Program-made: the position numbers and the translations under genes
The notes under the pieces: model-generated
The model's database searches: none
The model's input: the letters and a program-made list of their open reading frames with translations, nothing else
Told to the model about the DNA's origin: nothing
From: an uncultured bacterium
GTDB taxonomy: Bacteria > Verrucomicrobiota > Kiritimatiellia > CAIKKV01 > CAIYGI01
Assembly: GCA_903925685.1 (NCBI GenBank)
Contig: CAIYGI010000037.1
Span: forward strand, 1-50,792
Direction of reading: 5' to 3'
DNA length: 50,792 nt
In this document: positions 489 through 50,792 of the stretch, piece by piece
How the letters are laid out: each line of letters opens with the position of its first letter
Position numbering within the stretch: the first letter of the stretch is position 1

Positions 489-1589
489 ATGACACATCGA
501 ATACTGCTTGCTGTTCTGGTTGTTGTTTTGAGTCTGCCCATCATCGGGGCCAGGGCGGATGAGGTTTCCTCCAACGCCGTGCCGGAGCGTGTCGCGGCCT
601 GCATGTTGCGCGACGCCTATTTGTTGTCCTCCAATGCCGAAGGGGCGCTGGGCGCCGGGCAGTCGTCCGAAGCCCTGACTGGCTTTACCAACGCCCTGGC
701 GCAGTTTCAGCGGATTCAAAAGCTGTACCCCGGCTGGCAGAGCGGGCTGGTCAATCACCGCGTGTCCGAGATTGATGACGTGGTGCGCCGCCTGCGCGCG
801 GGCGCGCCGGGCGAAGAGGTGGCCAGCGACGATCGCATACGGCGCCTGATACGCGACATGGAGCAGGTCCGCATCCTGCTGGCCTTGTCCGGCGAACCGC
901 GCGCCGCCACCGACGCCGAAGAAACCTCCATCCTGCGCGAACGGATCCGGCGGATGGAGGAGGAGAATGCGGCGCTGCAGCGGGCCAATCGGGCGCTGGT
1001 GGACGAAACGGCGCGCCTGGACGCGCGCCTTGCCAAACGCGAGAAGCGCAGCGAGCCCCGCCCGCAGGCCGGACTGGTGGCCAGCGTTTTGCGCCGCGAA
1101 GCCCAGCAATTGGAACAGCAACAACAGCCGGCCACCGCCATCGCGCTGCTGGCCGAGGCCTGCCTGCTGATGCCCGACAGCACCGAAATGACCCTGGCCT
1201 TCGGCCTGACGCAGATGCGCGCCGGCAAGTTTGCCGAGGCCCGCGACACGCTGCTTGCGCTGGCCGACCGCACGCGCACCAACGCCACGGTCTACACCGC
1301 GCTCGGATCGGCCTATATGGGCAACAACGACTTGAGCAGCGCCCGCGACGCCTTCGAAAAAGCCGTCTCGCTCAACCCCGAGATGGGCGACGCGCATTAC
1401 AACCTGGCCATGCTCTACATGGAGCGCGATCCCCCCGACACCGCCAACGCCGAGCGGGAATATATGCGGGCGATTCAGGCCGGCGCGGCCCCCGATCCGG
1501 CCTTGAGCAGCGCGATCCGCGATCTTTCGATCATCAAGGCCTTGAAGCAGAAGAAGAAGCCGGCGAGCGGTAATTCGGTGAAGCGGTGA
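489..1589 (+). CDS. Exported TPR-repeat protein with central coiled coil
   Basis: A protein of about 366 residues. I chose the ATG at 489 because AAGGAAG lies 6-7 nt upstream and it begins a clean Sec signal peptide (MTHRILLAVLVVVLSLP, ending near ARA). Residues about 140-180 form a charged coiled coil (repeated RRMEEENAALQ-type heptads). From about 200 to 340 there are TPR helices with typical patterns such as TALGSAYMGNNDLSSARDAF and HYNLAMLYMERD. It probably scaffolds a periplasmic or envelope complex; the partner is unknown. The C-terminus (NSVKR-stop) is encoded by the first octamers of the array at 1568-1615, so the native end may have been replaced. Confidence 0.75.
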   Translation: MTHRILLAVLVVVLSLPIIGARADEVSSNAVPERVAACMLRDAYLLSSNAEGALGAGQSSEALTGFTNALAQFQRIQKLYPGWQSGLVNHRVSEIDDVVRRLRAGAPGEEVASDDRIRRLIRDMEQVRILLALSGEPRAATDAEETSILRERIRRMEEENAALQRANRALVDETARLDARLAKREKRSEPRPQAGLVASVLRREAQQLEQQQQPATAIALLAEACLLMPDSTEMTLAFGLTQMRAGKFAEARDTLLALADRTRTNATVYTALGSAYMGNNDLSSARDAFEKAVSLNPEMGDAHYNLAMLYMERDPPDTANAEREYMRAIQAGAAPDPALSSAIRDLSIIKALKQKKKPASGNSVKR

Positions 1590-1615
1590 GTCGGTGAGTC
1601 GGTGAGGCGGTTAGG
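1568..1615. repeat. Left arm of octamer element around four-helix-bundle gene 1
   Basis: Six consecutive 8-bp units of consensus CGGTGAGT: CGGTAATT, CGGTGAAG, CGGTGAGT twice, CGGTGAGG, CGGTTAGG. They lie in inverted orientation to the units at 2005-2056. Three features are encoded in or touch this arm: the last residues and TGA of the plus-strand TPR gene (1589) and the TAA of the minus-strand four-helix-bundle gene (1611-1613). Confidence 0.9.
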
Positions 1616-1994
1616 CCTCGGGAATGTCGGTGAATTGGCGCGCTTTCATGAGCATTGCTCCCAGCATGCGGCCTACGGATTCAACATCGCGAGATAGGGA
1701 GGCATGAGCCTCTTTCGACAGATATTCGCAGTCTCTTGCATAGTCGAGCCAAGTGTCAGTTTCTGCATTCTCACCATCGCAATCCGTCAGTTTCGTCACA
1801 AAGTGGGCAGCGTACAGTCTTTTCGCCCATGCTTCGCGGAGATTGGCGCATACCGATCGTGAGCTGCGTCTGATCTGATCGGTCAAAGCATACCGCTCTT
1901 CGCGGGGCCAATCCTTGGATTGACGAAATATTTCCATCGAGAGCGCATACGCAAACTTGTAAACATCCAGATCCTTAGCCGACTTCGCCTTCAT
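1611..1994 (-). CDS. Four-helix-bundle protein (S23 / 23S rRNA-intervening-sequence family)
   Basis: 127 residues, typical length for the S23/TIGR02436 family. Visible hallmarks: the N-terminal LDVYKFAYALSMEIF helix, the signature DWPREERYALTDQIRRSSRS followed by VCANLREAWAKR, and the subgroup motif FVTKLTDCDGENAETDTWLDYA. Members were first found in insertions within 23S rRNA of Leptospira and Coxiella; related folds (Avd of diversity-generating retroelements) bind nucleic acid. The biochemical role of stand-alone copies is not established. The gene is bracketed by inverted octamer arrays (1568-1615, 2005-2056), the ATG lies 11 bp from the right arm, and its TAA is in the left arm. The ribosome binding site is weak (GGGGCGG). 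Gene plus arms looks like one element inserted between two convergent genes. Confidence 0.9.
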   Translation of the reverse strand: MKAKSAKDLDVYKFAYALSMEIFRQSKDWPREERYALTDQIRRSSRSVCANLREAWAKRLYAAHFVTKLTDCDGENAETDTWLDYARDCEYLSKEAHASLSRDVESVGRMLGAMLMKARQFTDIPEA

Positions 1995-2004
1995 GTCCGC
2001 CCCG

Positions 2005-2056
2005 CTTCACCGCTTCACCGTTTCACCGATTCACCGACTCACCGACTCACCGATTC
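2005..2056. repeat. Right arm of octamer element around four-helix-bundle gene 1
   Basis: Six full octamers (CTTCACCG twice, TTTCACCG, ATTCACCG, ACTCACCG twice) plus a decayed seventh. The two ACTCACCG units are exact reverse complements of the CGGTGAGT units at 1584-1599, giving a perfect 16-bp pairing core. Variation is confined mainly to the first two positions of each unit. The stop codon and last residues (ESVSR) of the downstream-facing CsgG-like gene are encoded in the outer units. Confidence 0.9.
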
Positions 2057-2968
2057 ACTCATCTGCAGCCACTGTCCCCTGGCGAATCCCTCGCCGTGCA
2101 CCACATCGGCCAGCGCCATGCGCCGTTCCGCCTTGACGATCCGCACGGTTCCGATCCGCCGGCCAGGCAAAAAACCCAGCACATCGCCGGTTTCGGGATC
2201 CGTCACCGGCCGCGCTGGCTCCATGACTTCGAAAGTGGCGCCAACGCGCACGCCGGTCTCCGTGCCGCCGTTCAGGATCAGCCGCTTCCCGGTCACTTCC
2301 GCCACCATCAGATGGCGCTGGTCCACCGGCACCTCGCGCAAAACGCGCGCCACGCCCTCGCGGATGGCCTCCCGGGTGGCTGTGCCAAGCGGCGTGCGGA
2401 AATAGGCGTCGCCGCCAAAGCGCACGCCCTTGTATTCGGTTTCGGCGTAGGCGTAACCAGCATGCGCCCGCCCTGCGCAATTGACGGAGCCGATGATGCG
2501 TCCGCTCTCGATATCCACCAGCGTCAGCGTCAGCGTCACGCGCGCCGTGTAGCCGCGCCCGATGAAGGCGATCCAGTTCAGGGCAAACCAGAAACTGCCG
2601 CCGCTTTCCTGCGAGAAGTCCGTGATCACGCCGCGAATCAGATATTGGGCGTTCTTCAAGCGGCCGACGGTCAGTTTGCGTTCCGGGCGGAACCAGGAGC
2701 TTTGCTGTTGTTTGAGTTCGCCGATCACGCTATCGAAATGCTGGCGTTCGACAACCTCCAAGTGCGGCACGCGCACGAGTTCGCTCACCAGCACGTCGGC
2801 CATTCCATCGCCCAGCCGCCACTGCCCGTCGTAACCGGACCGGTTCTCGAAGGAACTGACGGCGAACAGGGGCGCCACCGTATCGTCCGGCCAATTCGGC
2901 AGGCCCGGCCCATAGATGCCGCACCCCGCCGCAATCAGCCCCGCGATGATCGTCACCCAAACGCGCAT
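2039..2968 (-). CDS. CsgG/LpoB-like outer-membrane lipoprotein
   Basis: 309 residues with a lipoprotein signal: MRVWVTIIAGLIAAGC, lipobox IAAGC, lipid-attachment Cys at 16. Residues about 35-220 resemble the CsgG family (penicillin-binding-protein activator / curli secretion fold): APLFAVSSFENRSG at the start, ADVLVSELVRVPHLEVVER, then YLIRGVITDFS and a strand-rich region ending LVDIESGRIIGSV. The C-terminal ~80 residues form an extra beta-rich module (LILNGGTETGVRVGATFEV). The ribosome binding site GGAGG precedes the ATG. Likely an envelope lipoprotein; the exact role (secretion pore versus PBP activator) cannot be decided. The C-terminal ESVSR is derived from the adjacent octamer array. Confidence 0.75.
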   Translation of the reverse strand: MRVWVTIIAGLIAAGCGIYGPGLPNWPDDTVAPLFAVSSFENRSGYDGQWRLGDGMADVLVSELVRVPHLEVVERQHFDSVIGELKQQQSSWFRPERKLTVGRLKNAQYLIRGVITDFSQESGGSFWFALNWIAFIGRGYTARVTLTLTLVDIESGRIIGSVNCAGRAHAGYAYAETEYKGVRFGGDAYFRTPLGTATREAIREGVARVLREVPVDQRHLMVAEVTGKRLILNGGTETGVRVGATFEVMEPARPVTDPETGDVLGFLPGRRIGTVRIVKAERRMALADVVHGEGFARGQWLQMSESVSR

Positions 2969-2993
2969 TGAAACCTCCGCGCGTGACTTTGTT

Positions 2994-3154
2994 GTGAGTG
3001 GTGAGTAGTGAGTAGTGAGTGGTGAGTTGTGAGTGGTGAGTTGTGAGTGGTGAGTTGTGAGTTGTTAAAAGCAAAAGATGAAAACGTTTACCTTACAAAG
3101 ACTCAGCAACCTATTCACGACTCACGATTCACCACTCACCACTCACTACTCAAT
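2994..3154. repeat. Empty inverted 7-mer element
   Basis: Left arm 2994-3063: ten exact-length 7-bp units GTGAGTN, where only the last base varies (G, A or T). Right arm 3113-3154: six 7-bp units of type ACTCACN/ATTCACN, the inverted complement. The 49-nt loop has no ORF. It lies between the CsgG-like gene (downstream) and the RRM gene (upstream) on the minus strand; the RRM gene's TGA (3150-3152) falls in the innermost-to-gene unit. It resembles the element at 1568-2056 but with unit length 7, more units and no gene. Confidence 0.9.
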
Positions 3155-3566
3155 AATCCCGCCGACCGCCGGCGCGGCGCGGGTTGCGCGCCTCGTTCAC
3201 GACCAGTTGCCGGCCCAGCAATTCGCGTCCATGCATCGCCTGGATCGCCGCTTCGGCTTCCCGGCGCACGGGCATGACGACGAAACCGAAGCGTTTGGAT
3301 CGGCCCTGGAATCGGCCCGCCACCACCCTCACCGAAGCGATGCCGCCAAAGCGCTCGAACTCCTTGCGCAAGGCCGGCTCCTCCATCTCGGAGGGCAGGT
3401 TGCCGACATAAAGTTCAACTCCATCCGCGTCGCCGCGGACGCCGCCTCCGCCGCCGCGCGCGCGTTTCGGGGTCTTGCGTCCGATCAAAAATCCGACACC
3501 CGCCCCCGCCAAAAAAGCCACCGGCGCCATCACCTCTGGTTGCATCATAAACGATACTGACATCAT
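3150..3566 (-). CDS. RNA-binding RRM-domain protein with hydrophobic N-terminus
   Basis: 138 residues. A single RRM domain covers about 50-128: RNP2 is LYVGNL, RNP1 is KRFGFVVM (usual K/RGFGFV), with the typical EPALRKEFERFG and AIQAMHGRELLGRQLVVNEAR elements. Residues about 12-28 (MAPVAFLAGAGVGFLIG) are hydrophobic and glycine-rich, an unusual addition to the short bacterial RRM proteins (commonly about 80-100 residues), followed by a KR/G-rich linker. It probably binds single-stranded RNA, possibly at the membrane. The start is uncertain: in-frame Met residues at 7 and 13 are alternatives. Its stop codon is provided by the 7-mer array. Confidence 0.8.
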   Translation of the reverse strand: MMSVSFMMQPEVMAPVAFLAGAGVGFLIGRKTPKRARGGGGGVRGDADGVELYVGNLPSEMEEPALRKEFERFGGIASVRVVAGRFQGRSKRFGFVVMPVRREAEAAIQAMHGRELLGRQLVVNEARNPRRAGGRRDY

Positions 3567-3641
3567 ATTGCGTCTTCCCTGCTGTTTGCGTCTGTGAACA
3601 CGGCACGGCGTCCCGCCTGGGAAGCCGTGAGATGCCGCGTA

Positions 3642-12357: not shown

Positions 12358-12479
12358 CAACCGCCGATTTCATTTGTCGCTTGTCGAAACCCCGCCCCGA
12401 TCTAACTTGCGCCACTCTAATCGGGTTGTCGGTTGCGTGTGTTGCCAAAGCCGCGCCCGCTACAAGGCGGCGACGCCTC

Positions 12480-12567
12480 TATAAGTGAATGTCCAAAGTC
12501 CATATACGACCCCACTCGCCCACTATAAGTGAATGTCCAAAGTCCATATACGACCCCACTCGCCCAC
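12480..12567. repeat. Perfect 44-bp tandem duplication
   Basis: Two identical, head-to-tail 44-bp units (12480-12523 and 12524-12567) starting TATAAGTGAATGTCCAAAG. Perfect identity implies a recent duplication. No ORF. Confidence 0.95.
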
Positions 12568-22843: not shown

Positions 22844-22865
22844 CGCGTCCCCGTTTTCATTCTCC

Positions 22866-22922
22866 TCCACCTTCCACCCCTCCACCCTTCACCATCCACC
22901 CTCCACCTTCCACCTTCCACCC
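22866..22922. repeat. Single-arm 7-mer tandem array
   Basis: Eight 7-bp units of type TCCACCN (TCCACCT, TCCACCC, with one TTCACCA and one extra C at 22880). Unlike the arrays at 1568, 2994 and 49634, I find no inverted partner nearby. It lies between the tldD stop and the gate-domain gene start. Confidence 0.85.
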
Positions 22923-22939
22923 GCTATTTTTCCGCCCAA

Positions 22940-49044: not shown

Positions 49045-49617
49045 TCAAGTCAAACCGTTTGACGACCCGCCATCGCGCTCGCCGCCCAAACTGCCGTGGA
49101 AGGCCAGGTAAAAGAGCGCGCTCTGGAAGACGCAGCGTAATCCGACGCCTTCGGCTTCGGTCAGCAGAATGTGGCCCTTGAAAACTACTTCGCCGGCCTT
49201 TTCCTTGCGCGAGATGTCGAGCGCATAGCCCGGCGGCTCGGCGCTGTGGCGCAGGCCGATCAGCGTGTTGGCCGCGCCGGCTTCATGATATATCCCGCGC
49301 GGACCGCCCGCCTGCTCGGTTTTTCCTTCCAGCACGCGCAGGAATTCGCAGATGTCGGTGAAATCGAGTTTCACCGTCACCTTGGCGGCCCAGTCGAATG
49401 TCGCCGCCGGATGCCCGCCCGCGCCGCGCGCCGTCTTCTGGCGCGCCATTTCGAGGAAGAAACAGTCGTATCGATCCTCGCCGGGACGATTAAGCCTGAG
49501 TTCGAGCTGGATCGCCGCGCCGGTCACGTTGGCGTTGGGATGATAGAAGGTCAGCCGCCGCCCGTAGTTGCGGTGCGGCTCCGGCGGCGTGTCAGGTATT
49601 ATCGGTGTTGTGCTCAT
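49045..49617 (-). CDS. Hypothetical protein downstream of ssb (possible nucleic-acid-binding fold)
   Basis: 190 residues, cytoplasmic. Mixed beta-rich sequence: RRLTFYHPNANVTGAAIQLE, DRYDCFFLEMARQKTARGAG, FDWAAKVTVKLDFTDICEFL, GLRHSAEPPGYALDISRKEK and FQSALFYLAFHGS. The FYHPNANVTGAAIQLEL strand followed by curved strands and a late helix recalls Whirly/PC4-type ssDNA-binding folds, and its place after ssb agrees, but I cannot name a family. The four-helix-bundle element separates it from ssb. Confidence 0.5.
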   Translation of the reverse strand: MSTTPIIPDTPPEPHRNYGRRLTFYHPNANVTGAAIQLELRLNRPGEDRYDCFFLEMARQKTARGAGGHPAATFDWAAKVTVKLDFTDICEFLRVLEGKTEQAGGPRGIYHEAGAANTLIGLRHSAEPPGYALDISRKEKAGEVVFKGHILLTEAEGVGLRCVFQSALFYLAFHGSLGGERDGGSSNGLT

Positions 49618-49633: not shown

Positions 49634-49713
49634 ACATTAGACTGTTAGGCTGTTAGACTGTTAGACTGTTAGACTGTTAGGCTGTTAGGCTGTTAGGCTG
49701 TTAGGCTGTTAGG
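49634..49713. repeat. Left arm of octamer element around four-helix-bundle gene 2
   Basis: Nine exact 8-bp units CTGTTAGG/CTGTTAGA (49642-49713) plus one decayed unit (ACATTAGA) at the outer edge. Only the eighth base varies (three consecutive A-type units, the rest G-type). The last unit supplies the TAA of the four-helix-bundle gene (49709-49711). The inverted partner is at 50082-50105. Confidence 0.95.
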
Positions 49714-50065
49714 AGTTACGGATGGATCGCATCAAGGCGCTCAGGACCTTACCGGCCTCCACCATTTTTATATCACACTCAGAGACGTCTGATGCAGCCG
49801 AATATCCCAAGCGCCCGGCCAGATTGAGTTGGTAATGCAGTTCCCTCAATGAAGCAAAGGCCACTTCAAGAAATCGGAGATATTCAGCCTGGGTCTCACG
49901 CGCACAACCTTCAACAATGTTCGATGGAACCGAAACTGCCGCTCTTCGCATCTGAGATGTCAGCCCATACATTTCCTCTCTGGGAAACCGTCGTGTTGCC
50001 CGATAAATCAATACTGCCACCTCGTCTGCCAGTTCAAACGCCCGAAGCTTCGTATGATCTCGCAT
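49709..50065 (-). CDS. Four-helix-bundle protein (S23 family), second copy
   Basis: 118 residues. Hallmarks: KLRAFELADEVAVLIYRATR, FPREEMYGLTSQMRRAAVSV, then PSNIVEGCARET, FLEVAFASLRELHYQLNLAG. This is the common S23 subgroup, distinct from the first copy (which has the LTDCDGENAET motif); only the FPREE.YGLT.Q.RR signature is strongly shared. AGGAGG lies 6 nt before the ATG and touches the right octamer arm. Its stop is in the left arm. Inserted between ssb and its downstream gene on the same strand. Confidence 0.92.
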   Translation of the reverse strand: MRDHTKLRAFELADEVAVLIYRATRRFPREEMYGLTSQMRRAAVSVPSNIVEGCARETQAEYLRFLEVAFASLRELHYQLNLAGRLGYSAASDVSECDIKMVEAGKVLSALMRSIRNS

Positions 50066-50081
50066 TCTTTCCTCCTAAAAG

Positions 50082-50113
50082 TCTAACAGCCTAACAGTCT
50101 AACAGCCTATTCT
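50082..50113. repeat. Right arm of octamer element around four-helix-bundle gene 2
   Basis: Three 8-bp units TCTAACAG, CCTAACAG, TCTAACAG (50082-50105) and a decayed fourth unit (CCTATTCT). Inverted complement of the left-arm units. It lies between the ssb stop and the ribosome binding site of the four-helix-bundle gene, so it would be in the 5' leader of that gene and the 3' trailer of ssb. Confidence 0.92.
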
Positions 50114-50118
50114 TTAAA

Positions 50119-50526
50119 TTAGACCGCCGGCAAAATTGGTTCATCGTCCGCGACCGGCGGTTTGGCTTCGTCGGTTTTGCCGCTCCCCTTGGTGCGGGCC
50201 AGGAAGTGTACCCGCTCGGCCTGCACGCGCAGGCGGTTGCGCTTTTCGCCCTTGTCGCTCTCCCATTGCTCGAAGTGCAGATGTCCCTCGATCAGCACGG
50301 ACGAACCCTTTTGAAGATATTGCCCGCAAACCTCGGCCTGCTTGTTCCAGACCACGATTTCCACAAAGCAGGGCTGTTCGACCCGCTCGCCTTCCTTGTT
50401 GGTGTAGCTTTCCGACACCGCCAGCCCCATATCCGCGACACTGGCCCCGGCCGGCGTACGACGCAGCGCGGGATCGCGCGTCAGGTTGCCCATCAATATC
50501 ACCCGGTTCATATTGTTCGCACTCAT
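50119..50526 (-). CDS. ssb: Single-stranded DNA-binding protein
   Basis: 135 residues from the ATG at 50526 (MSANNMNRVILMGNLTRDPA), with GAGG about 10 nt upstream; the ATG at 50511 is an alternative. OB-fold features: LTRDPALRRTPAGASVADMG, FVEIVVWNKQAEVCGQYLQK and GSSVLIEGHLHFEQWESDKG, RVQAERVHFL. The tail is acidic and ends DDEPILPAV, not the classical DDDIPF tip, so interaction with partner proteins may differ. The 266 bp upstream to the window end contain no confident gene. Confidence 0.93.
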   Translation of the reverse strand: MSANNMNRVILMGNLTRDPALRRTPAGASVADMGLAVSESYTNKEGERVEQPCFVEIVVWNKQAEVCGQYLQKGSSVLIEGHLHFEQWESDKGEKRNRLRVQAERVHFLARTKGSGKTDEAKPPVADDEPILPAV

Positions 50527-50792
50527 GTTCCTCATCTCCTCGTAAACGCGCAGCGCCGGACAATCCATGCGCCATTTTCGCGTTCCTAAAGATATGAAGG
50601 AAACAGATCGAAACTTTTCCACCATGCCGCTAAATTCCATAACACTTAGGTTCTTGAGAGTCCCGTTTTGTGACTCATGCGACCAAGCGTAGTCCTTCGG
50701 CCCTGTCGATGTCAATATAGTGGCGGATGAATTTCGCAAGGGCGTGGGATTGTGGTGAATCCGCGAGAAATAGCGGGAGGCTATGGCGCAAA

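Follow-up and report, generated by a model that had tools for sequence, protein, structure and literature searches.

Inverted octamer arms enclosing an S23 gene

The window analysed here is one whole contig (CAIYGI010000037.1, or C37; 50,792 bases) of an uncultured bacterium of the class Kiritimatiellia, whose genome is 96% complete (4.12 Mb in 347 contigs). Next to ssb, it holds an element of ~475 bp on the minus strand (49636–50110), delimited by Tandem Repeats Finder (TRF), an array mask, and RNA folding, in which inverted octamer arms enclose one gene of the S23 family (23S_rRNA_IVP, four-helix bundle). The 3′ arm relative to this gene (49636–49717, minus strand) consists of ~10 octamers that read CTGTTAGR on the plus strand, the corresponding left array in TRF being 49637–49713 with 9.6 octamer copies and 95% matches. 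The 5′ arm (50074–50110, minus strand) is the inverse of the 3′ arm and comprises ~4.5 octamers (right array in TRF, 50074–50109; 4.5 copies in inverse orientation). Both arms are apparent in the sequence and were also recognised by word count and by an array detector: CTGTTAGRCTGTTAGR has eight matches in the left array and three in the right, on opposite strands, with 0.01 expected by chance in the window and 11 found, and the detector recorded seven such arrays in the entire window and none in 20 shuffles, on which ground a chance origin of the arrays is rejected.

The S23 gene (49709–50065, minus strand; 118 aa) was assigned from its open reading frame (ORF), profile matches, and a PDB relative (2GSC). 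Its stop codon (49709–49711) falls within the final unit of the left array, and its Shine–Dalgarno sequence, AGGAGG (50071–50076, minus strand), overlaps the inner edge of the 5′ arm, in the first unit of the right array. It is the only ORF found within the element by ORF listing and profile search, which leaves the element without a transposase gene. Folding of the element as RNA predicted a terminal stem of ~30 bp, i.e. paired inverted ends as in the intervening sequences (IVSs) of 23S rRNA. The element itself is not in 23S rRNA, being flanked by ssb and another protein gene; no rRNA was detected by Rfam in the window or at 19 other S23 loci with weak arms, and an rRNA location of the latter is rejected (0/19).

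An earlier sequence-only reading of the window had placed this element at 49634–50113, with nine units on the left and three on the right. The element is real, at about 49636–50110, and the left count approximates that of TRF; on the right, 4 to 4.5 units are present when degenerate ones are counted. The position of the gene inside the arrays and of its stop codon inside an arm was as described. The same layout had been noted at a second locus, and this also holds: an independent copy of the architecture (1575–2062, minus strand; identified by sequence, TRF, profile, and array detector) has GGTGARTC octamer arms around the gene 1614–1994, whose product is 25% identical to the S23 protein of the ssb-side element.

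Upstream of the ssb-side element is ssb (50119–50739, minus strand; single-strand DNA-binding protein, PF00436, 1.8e-32), the annotated TTG start of which may be placed too far upstream. Downstream is a gene for a 190-aa protein without a named family in profile searches (49045–49617, minus strand), which directly follows ssb in several relatives. The gap of ~500 nt between these two genes holds both arrays and the S23 gene.

Occupied and empty sites

The genome was surveyed together with 38 relatives (39 genomes), many of which are fragmented drafts; DNA was taken around 127 loci, picked in order of match strength, and the shuffled or mismatched controls leave shared ancestry in. The gene for the 190-aa protein adjoins ssb in 7 of the 12 genomes that have it, and in four other families of the class the gap between the two measures ~0, 11, 15, and 90 nt, representing the empty site. 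The suggestion that an insertion has split ssb from its operon partner is therefore borne out by the spacing check. In a sister species (ssb, 88% identical; 190-aa protein, 95%), the gap has no S23 gene, but degraded CTGTTAGR arms around another small hairpin, and in a genome of a further family (G028) a GxxExxY gene is found there, with inverted repeats on either side. This genome and its sister species also carry different elements at two further sites. The gap before a UDP-glucose dehydrogenase-like gene contains a different S23 element in each of two sister species, each element having its own word (L237, on contig C98, and L108).

CTGTTAGR has 70 matches at ~24 sites in this genome and six in the sister species, and is absent from 36 other genomes save for three degenerate matches in one. 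Only two of the ~24 sites carry S23, one copy being truncated; many others are gene-less hairpins of 80–160 nt with common cores. One of these, L233, retains the first 65 nt of the S23 element (86% identity, E 5e-18), which marks it as a derivative by internal deletion. At least three hairpins (L228, L231, and L221) differ cleanly between the sister species: this genome has them, and the other lacks them at sites whose flanks are ~93% identical. The mobility proposed in the sequence-only reading is in keeping with these differences, and that the S23 element is mobile is well supported by the comparison of genomes.

Some CTGTTAGR hairpins (L225, L229, L232, L143, L146, and L151) are bordered by a palindrome, GCATCCYNNNGGATGC, like repetitive extragenic palindromes (REPs). 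Genes for GxxExxY proteins (TIGR04256) also occur between inverted octamer-like arms (L137, L211, L208, L213, and L218), and at L137 and L211 such an element occupies a site where this genome has an S23 element. GxxExxY is possibly a second protein that uses the same arm architecture, a description true of some of its loci and not of most.

Arms of S23 genes in related genomes

TIGR02436 has 18 matches in this genome and at least one in 37 of the 39 genomes. Almost all ordinary S23 loci of this genome are enclosed by short inverted arrays, with a word particular to each locus (GAAGTCA, the octamers CTGTTAGR and GGTGARTC, GGTAGGT, GTGAGTN, GATGAAC, GAACATC, and GGTGGAG). Among 131 S23 ORFs in the 39 genomes, 68 showed inverted-repeat pairing of their flanks above the 99th percentile of mismatched flanks (~1.3 expected). 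At the same threshold, inverted arms were found at 46% of S23 genes and 8% of control ORFs, the latter figure being inflated because array loci are among the sampled controls. The autocorrelation of the flanks of 106 full-length S23 loci had peaks at lags 7, 14, and 8 and at no others, and these were confined to the vicinity of the gene. The unit length, described as identical in the sequence-only reading, is indeed eight at both window loci, but is not strictly constant across S23 loci, seven being the commonest and eight the next. In 65 of 70 pairs of related S23 loci, the arms of one element matched each other better than the arm of the relative.

At 119 of 155 loci the two flanking genes run in parallel, and S23 has their direction in 105 of these and the opposite one in 14; the S23 gene can thus be read from the mRNA of the host operon. 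Longer four-helix-bundle relatives (L012–L018, "four helix bundle suffix") were set apart, as most lack 7–8-base arms at the gene; those at L012, L014, L015, L016, and L018 (~165–290 aa) are often accompanied by a hairpin or 9-base repeats, either immediately upstream or alongside.

The repeat word and the S23 clade

The sequence-only reading had suggested that protein subtype and repeat unit co-vary, and this was upheld by the comparison of 91 S23 loci with arrays: between different genomes, protein identity and arm similarity were correlated (Mantel r 0.357), the maximum of 2000 permutations being 0.069 (sd 0.018). The arm similarity of unrelated S23 genes was not higher within one genome (0.027) than between genomes (0.031). 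The closest outside relatives of the window S23 protein (67% aa identity, in two other families) bear the same TAGGCTGT word, and S23 pairs that are 80–93% identical and come from different genera still have arms common to both. Of 108 S23 pairs with identities of 55% or more, 100 had no flanking gene in common. For the AGACCAT clade, the array pattern was found in four of the five host genomes, compared with 5 of 34 other genomes (hypergeometric p ~0.007). Judged from these sequence comparisons, it is well supported that the repeat word tracks the S23 clade and not the host, as a cognate pairing of word and protein.

Distribution across phyla

A scan of named genomes with XCC0516 of Xanthomonas campestris as query gave 80 S23 loci in about 20 phyla, including Proteobacteria, Bacteroidetes, Planctomycetes, Acidobacteria, Nitrospirae, Chloroflexi, Clostridia, candidate phyla, and one archaeal bin. 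Arrays were detected at 70 of the 80, and inverted arms exceeded the 99% null at 46 of 78, with an autocorrelation peak at lag 7 (0.38 vs 0.26). The correlation between protein and arms across phyla was 0.125 (sd 0.016) for these loci. Flanking arms of this kind are almost universal in the S23 family.

In X. campestris, which also has an S23 gene, 186 GGGAATC arrays are on record, of which 70 are in inverted pairs (PMC4692102); it was therefore predicted beforehand that Xanthomonas S23 relatives would lie between GGGAATC arms. The scan returned no Xanthomonas record, and the prediction held in the nearest relatives obtained, with S23 genes of Luteimonas and Dokdonella lying between GGGAATC or GGGATTC arms. 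These genes are located in the gap between putative accB and accC (names read from the translated flanks).

The S23 protein

The window S23 protein matched PF05635 (1e-30; 106 bits, cut-off 33.8) and TIGR02436 (1e-31; 109 bits, cut-off 24), and its best solved relative is XCC0516 (PDB ID: 2GSC; E 1.3e-25), a pentamer ring of four-helix bundles (PMC4990558). The RxxxSxxxNxxE motif noted for Xcc0516 relatives (PMC3936711) is present as RAAVSVPSNIVE, while the leading G of the published GxxR is not conserved. In most closely related S23 pairs, the elements of which are at unrelated sites, dN/dS was 0.04–0.19, indicating strong purifying selection; the S23 protein thus matters for the persistence of the element. 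This selection, together with the matching of own arms in 65 of 70 pairs, leads us to read S23 as a sequence-specific binder of its own arms.

Discussion

We consider it probable that the window feature is a free-standing, intra-operonic mobile element of S23 type, which has spread through the action of S23 on its cognate arms. In the mechanism we propose, the arms would be the recognition sequence of the S23 protein encoded between them, and would pair into a long stem in the transcript, or possibly as extruded DNA, so as to join the two ends. S23 is most likely a non-catalytic nucleic-acid binder that would mark and protect this stem, and may promote the copying of the arm-bounded DNA to new sites by host enzymes; it could also act on gene-less copies, i.e. 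the miniature hairpins. If the element is inserted in the operon direction, the operon mRNA would serve for the translation of S23, and its stem might be cut out or processed, as RNase III does with the IVSs of 23S rRNA. Such an element would be tolerated because of this orientation and the removable or processed stem. The binding of S23 to cognate arms, the choice of RNA or DNA as its target, the processing by RNase III, and the nature of the moving enzyme are parts that we infer.

Several observations weigh against this interpretation. S23 carries no nuclease, transposase, or polymerase signature, and for this reason cannot by itself be the entire machinery. Inspection by eye of seven orthologous sites, including those of the three hairpins missing from the sister species, revealed no consistent target-site duplication; the hairpin-free sites there carry short arm-like stretches, and presence or absence in two species fits insertion and precise loss alike. 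About one third of the S23 loci have only one clear arm or degenerate arms. Two S23 proteins that are 95% identical, in two genomes with unrelated flanking genes (L102 and L107), have no clear shared arms, and a pair 72% identical (L030 and L054) is among the related pairs with different arms or none. Within the CTGTTAGR family, own arms pair no better than foreign ones (p 0.16), so that arm co-evolution is not significant there, and the two S23 copies of this family (L002 and the truncated L010) are under weaker constraint (dN/dS 0.31).

Another enzyme or process, for example a transposase of Y1/REP-associated tyrosine transposase (RAYT) type or replication slippage with template switching on hairpins, might mobilise the arms, with S23 as a passenger or regulator. 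This would account for an S23 protein devoid of a catalytic domain and for gene-less hairpins that outnumber the S23 copies ~10:1, as well as for the unrelated GxxExxY gene, which inverted octamer arms likewise enclose at similar kinds of site, and for the extra REP-like palindrome at the ends of some CTGTTAGR copies. A passenger would not, however, set the word, and across genomes and phyla alike it is the S23 clade that the arms track; moreover, the genome contains just two weak matches to Y1 transposases, on which a Y1/RAYT mover is rejected, no link of these to the arms having been seen, although none was looked for, and no reverse transcriptase. On balance we hold mobilisation by another enzyme to be unlikely. 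More improbable still is a stationary regulatory device, in which S23 binds the stem of its own mRNA and controls the translation of itself and the operon, while the unit number slips (phase variation). The Shine–Dalgarno sequence and stop codon inside the arms, the co-directional placement in operons, and the variable number of units upstream of the S23 start among Coxiella strains (PMC4990558) are all suited to such a device, which nevertheless leaves the empty sites, the unrelated contexts, and the gene-less copies at ~20 places unexplained; a regulatory role may exist alongside mobility.

That a genome rich in 7–8-base arrays merely has S23 genes nearby, by chance or through host-wide simple repeats, is very improbable in our estimation. 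Arrays without S23 do exist (window positions 2990–3158 and 22888–22924), but arms accompany 46% of S23 genes against the inflated 8% of control ORFs, and S23 loci within one genome have different words, with matching ones in related S23 genes from different genomes. Hardly credible is a role as accessory of a diversity-generating retroelement, for which a distant similarity to bAvd (33 bits) and NF033474 (31 bits) could be cited. Both scores miss the family cut-offs (40 and 80 bits), no PF00078 (RVT_1) match was found in the 96% complete genome, whereby mobilisation by a reverse transcriptase is rejected, and no template or variable repeat was noticed, although no search aimed at them was made.

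The free-standing S23 element suggested by the window is best compared with the IVSs of 23S rRNA, which contain an S23 ORF in Coxiella, Leptospira, and Brucella, have stems of paired ends, and are excised by RNase III; in Coxiella, two to three tandem heptamers (GACAGAT), variable among strains, lie just upstream of the S23 start codon (PMC4990558). Both have the same protein family, a single ORF, pairing inverted ends, and a length of ~430–480 nt. Elements of the window type differ in lying between protein genes in operons and not in rRNA, and in having long tandem arrays in both arms, clade-specific words, gene-less relatives, and many copies per genome. We regard the free-standing element as a relative of these IVSs with a fair chance of deserving its own class.

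The heptamer arrays of Xanthomonas and Nostoc (GGGAATC and GGGGAYT) have been treated as quadruplex-forming simple repeats and tied to no gene or mobile element (PMC4692102). Like the arms described here, they are dispersed intergenic heptamers with many inverted pairs, and the word flanks S23 in Luteimonas and Dokdonella. The TAACTGA repeats of Beggiatoaceae (PMC4679880) are likewise dispersed heptamers, but mostly direct rather than inverted, and no link to S23 was made.

REPIN–RAYT systems combine one protein gene per family with hairpins of cognate sequence that are dispersed and gene-less. Unlike RAYT, S23 is not a Y1 transposase; the S23 arms are tandem 7–8-mers, and the gene flanked by CTGTTAGR is S23. 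Miniature inverted-repeat transposable elements resemble the short gene-less copies, which have inverted ends in common with the gene-bearing copy and, in one case, derive from it by internal deletion; the parent here lacks a transposase, however, and target duplications are not consistent. bAvd, a pentamer, is a distantly similar four-helix-bundle protein, with the differences that this genome has no reverse transcriptase and that the bAvd profile remained below its cut-off.

No paper was found in which free-standing S23 genes are linked to inverted arrays; the literature search did not extend to most subscription journals or to preprints, and an earlier description is possible. S23 genes have been reported in cas operons (PMC3936711, PMC10910872), and may be further insertions of the S23 element. 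S23 is a common "hypothetical" gene, with a pentamer structure since 2006 and no assigned function, and the heptamer arrays of Xanthomonas, Nostoc, and Beggiatoaceae have so far stood unexplained, each separately. The link between S23 and arrays offers the flanking word as a testable ligand for the protein and a likely origin for the arrays, and would make the IVSs of 23S rRNA one special case of a wider element. Since the word changes with the S23 clade, a series of protein–sequence pairs is at hand for a recognition code. Altogether, the findings point to a widespread, overlooked, tiny selfish element without a recognisable transposase. A bolder proposal, plausible to us yet open to considerable doubt, is a novel class of mobile elements that carry no cutting enzyme of their own, in which the ring-forming S23 would read a clade-specific word, tandem inverted copies of which would suffice for copying by host enzymes; it would extend across bacteria and probably archaea, and many so far unexplained heptamer arrays of bacterial genomes would be its footprints.

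Other repeats in the window and at S23 loci

Inverted heptamer arrays, GTGAGTN and ACTCACN, lie ~50 nt apart at 2990–3158 with no gene inside; the word is that of the S23 locus L006, and has hundreds of matches in this genome, where one array, on contig C183, exceeds 230 nt. A lone heptamer array, CCTCCAC (22864–22924), bears the word of the S23 locus L009, with neither partner nor gene. A gene-less octamer hairpin, GACGCAAA / CTTTGCGT, is found at 245–335, and its word recurs on both sides of GxxExxY genes at other places in the genome (L213). Near the S23 gene of a KSB1 genome (L304), two matches to Acido-Lenti-1 RNA (RF01687) were recorded at 2983–3028 and 3556–3601. Lastly, a 44-base unit forms a perfect tandem duplication at 12479–12567 of the window.
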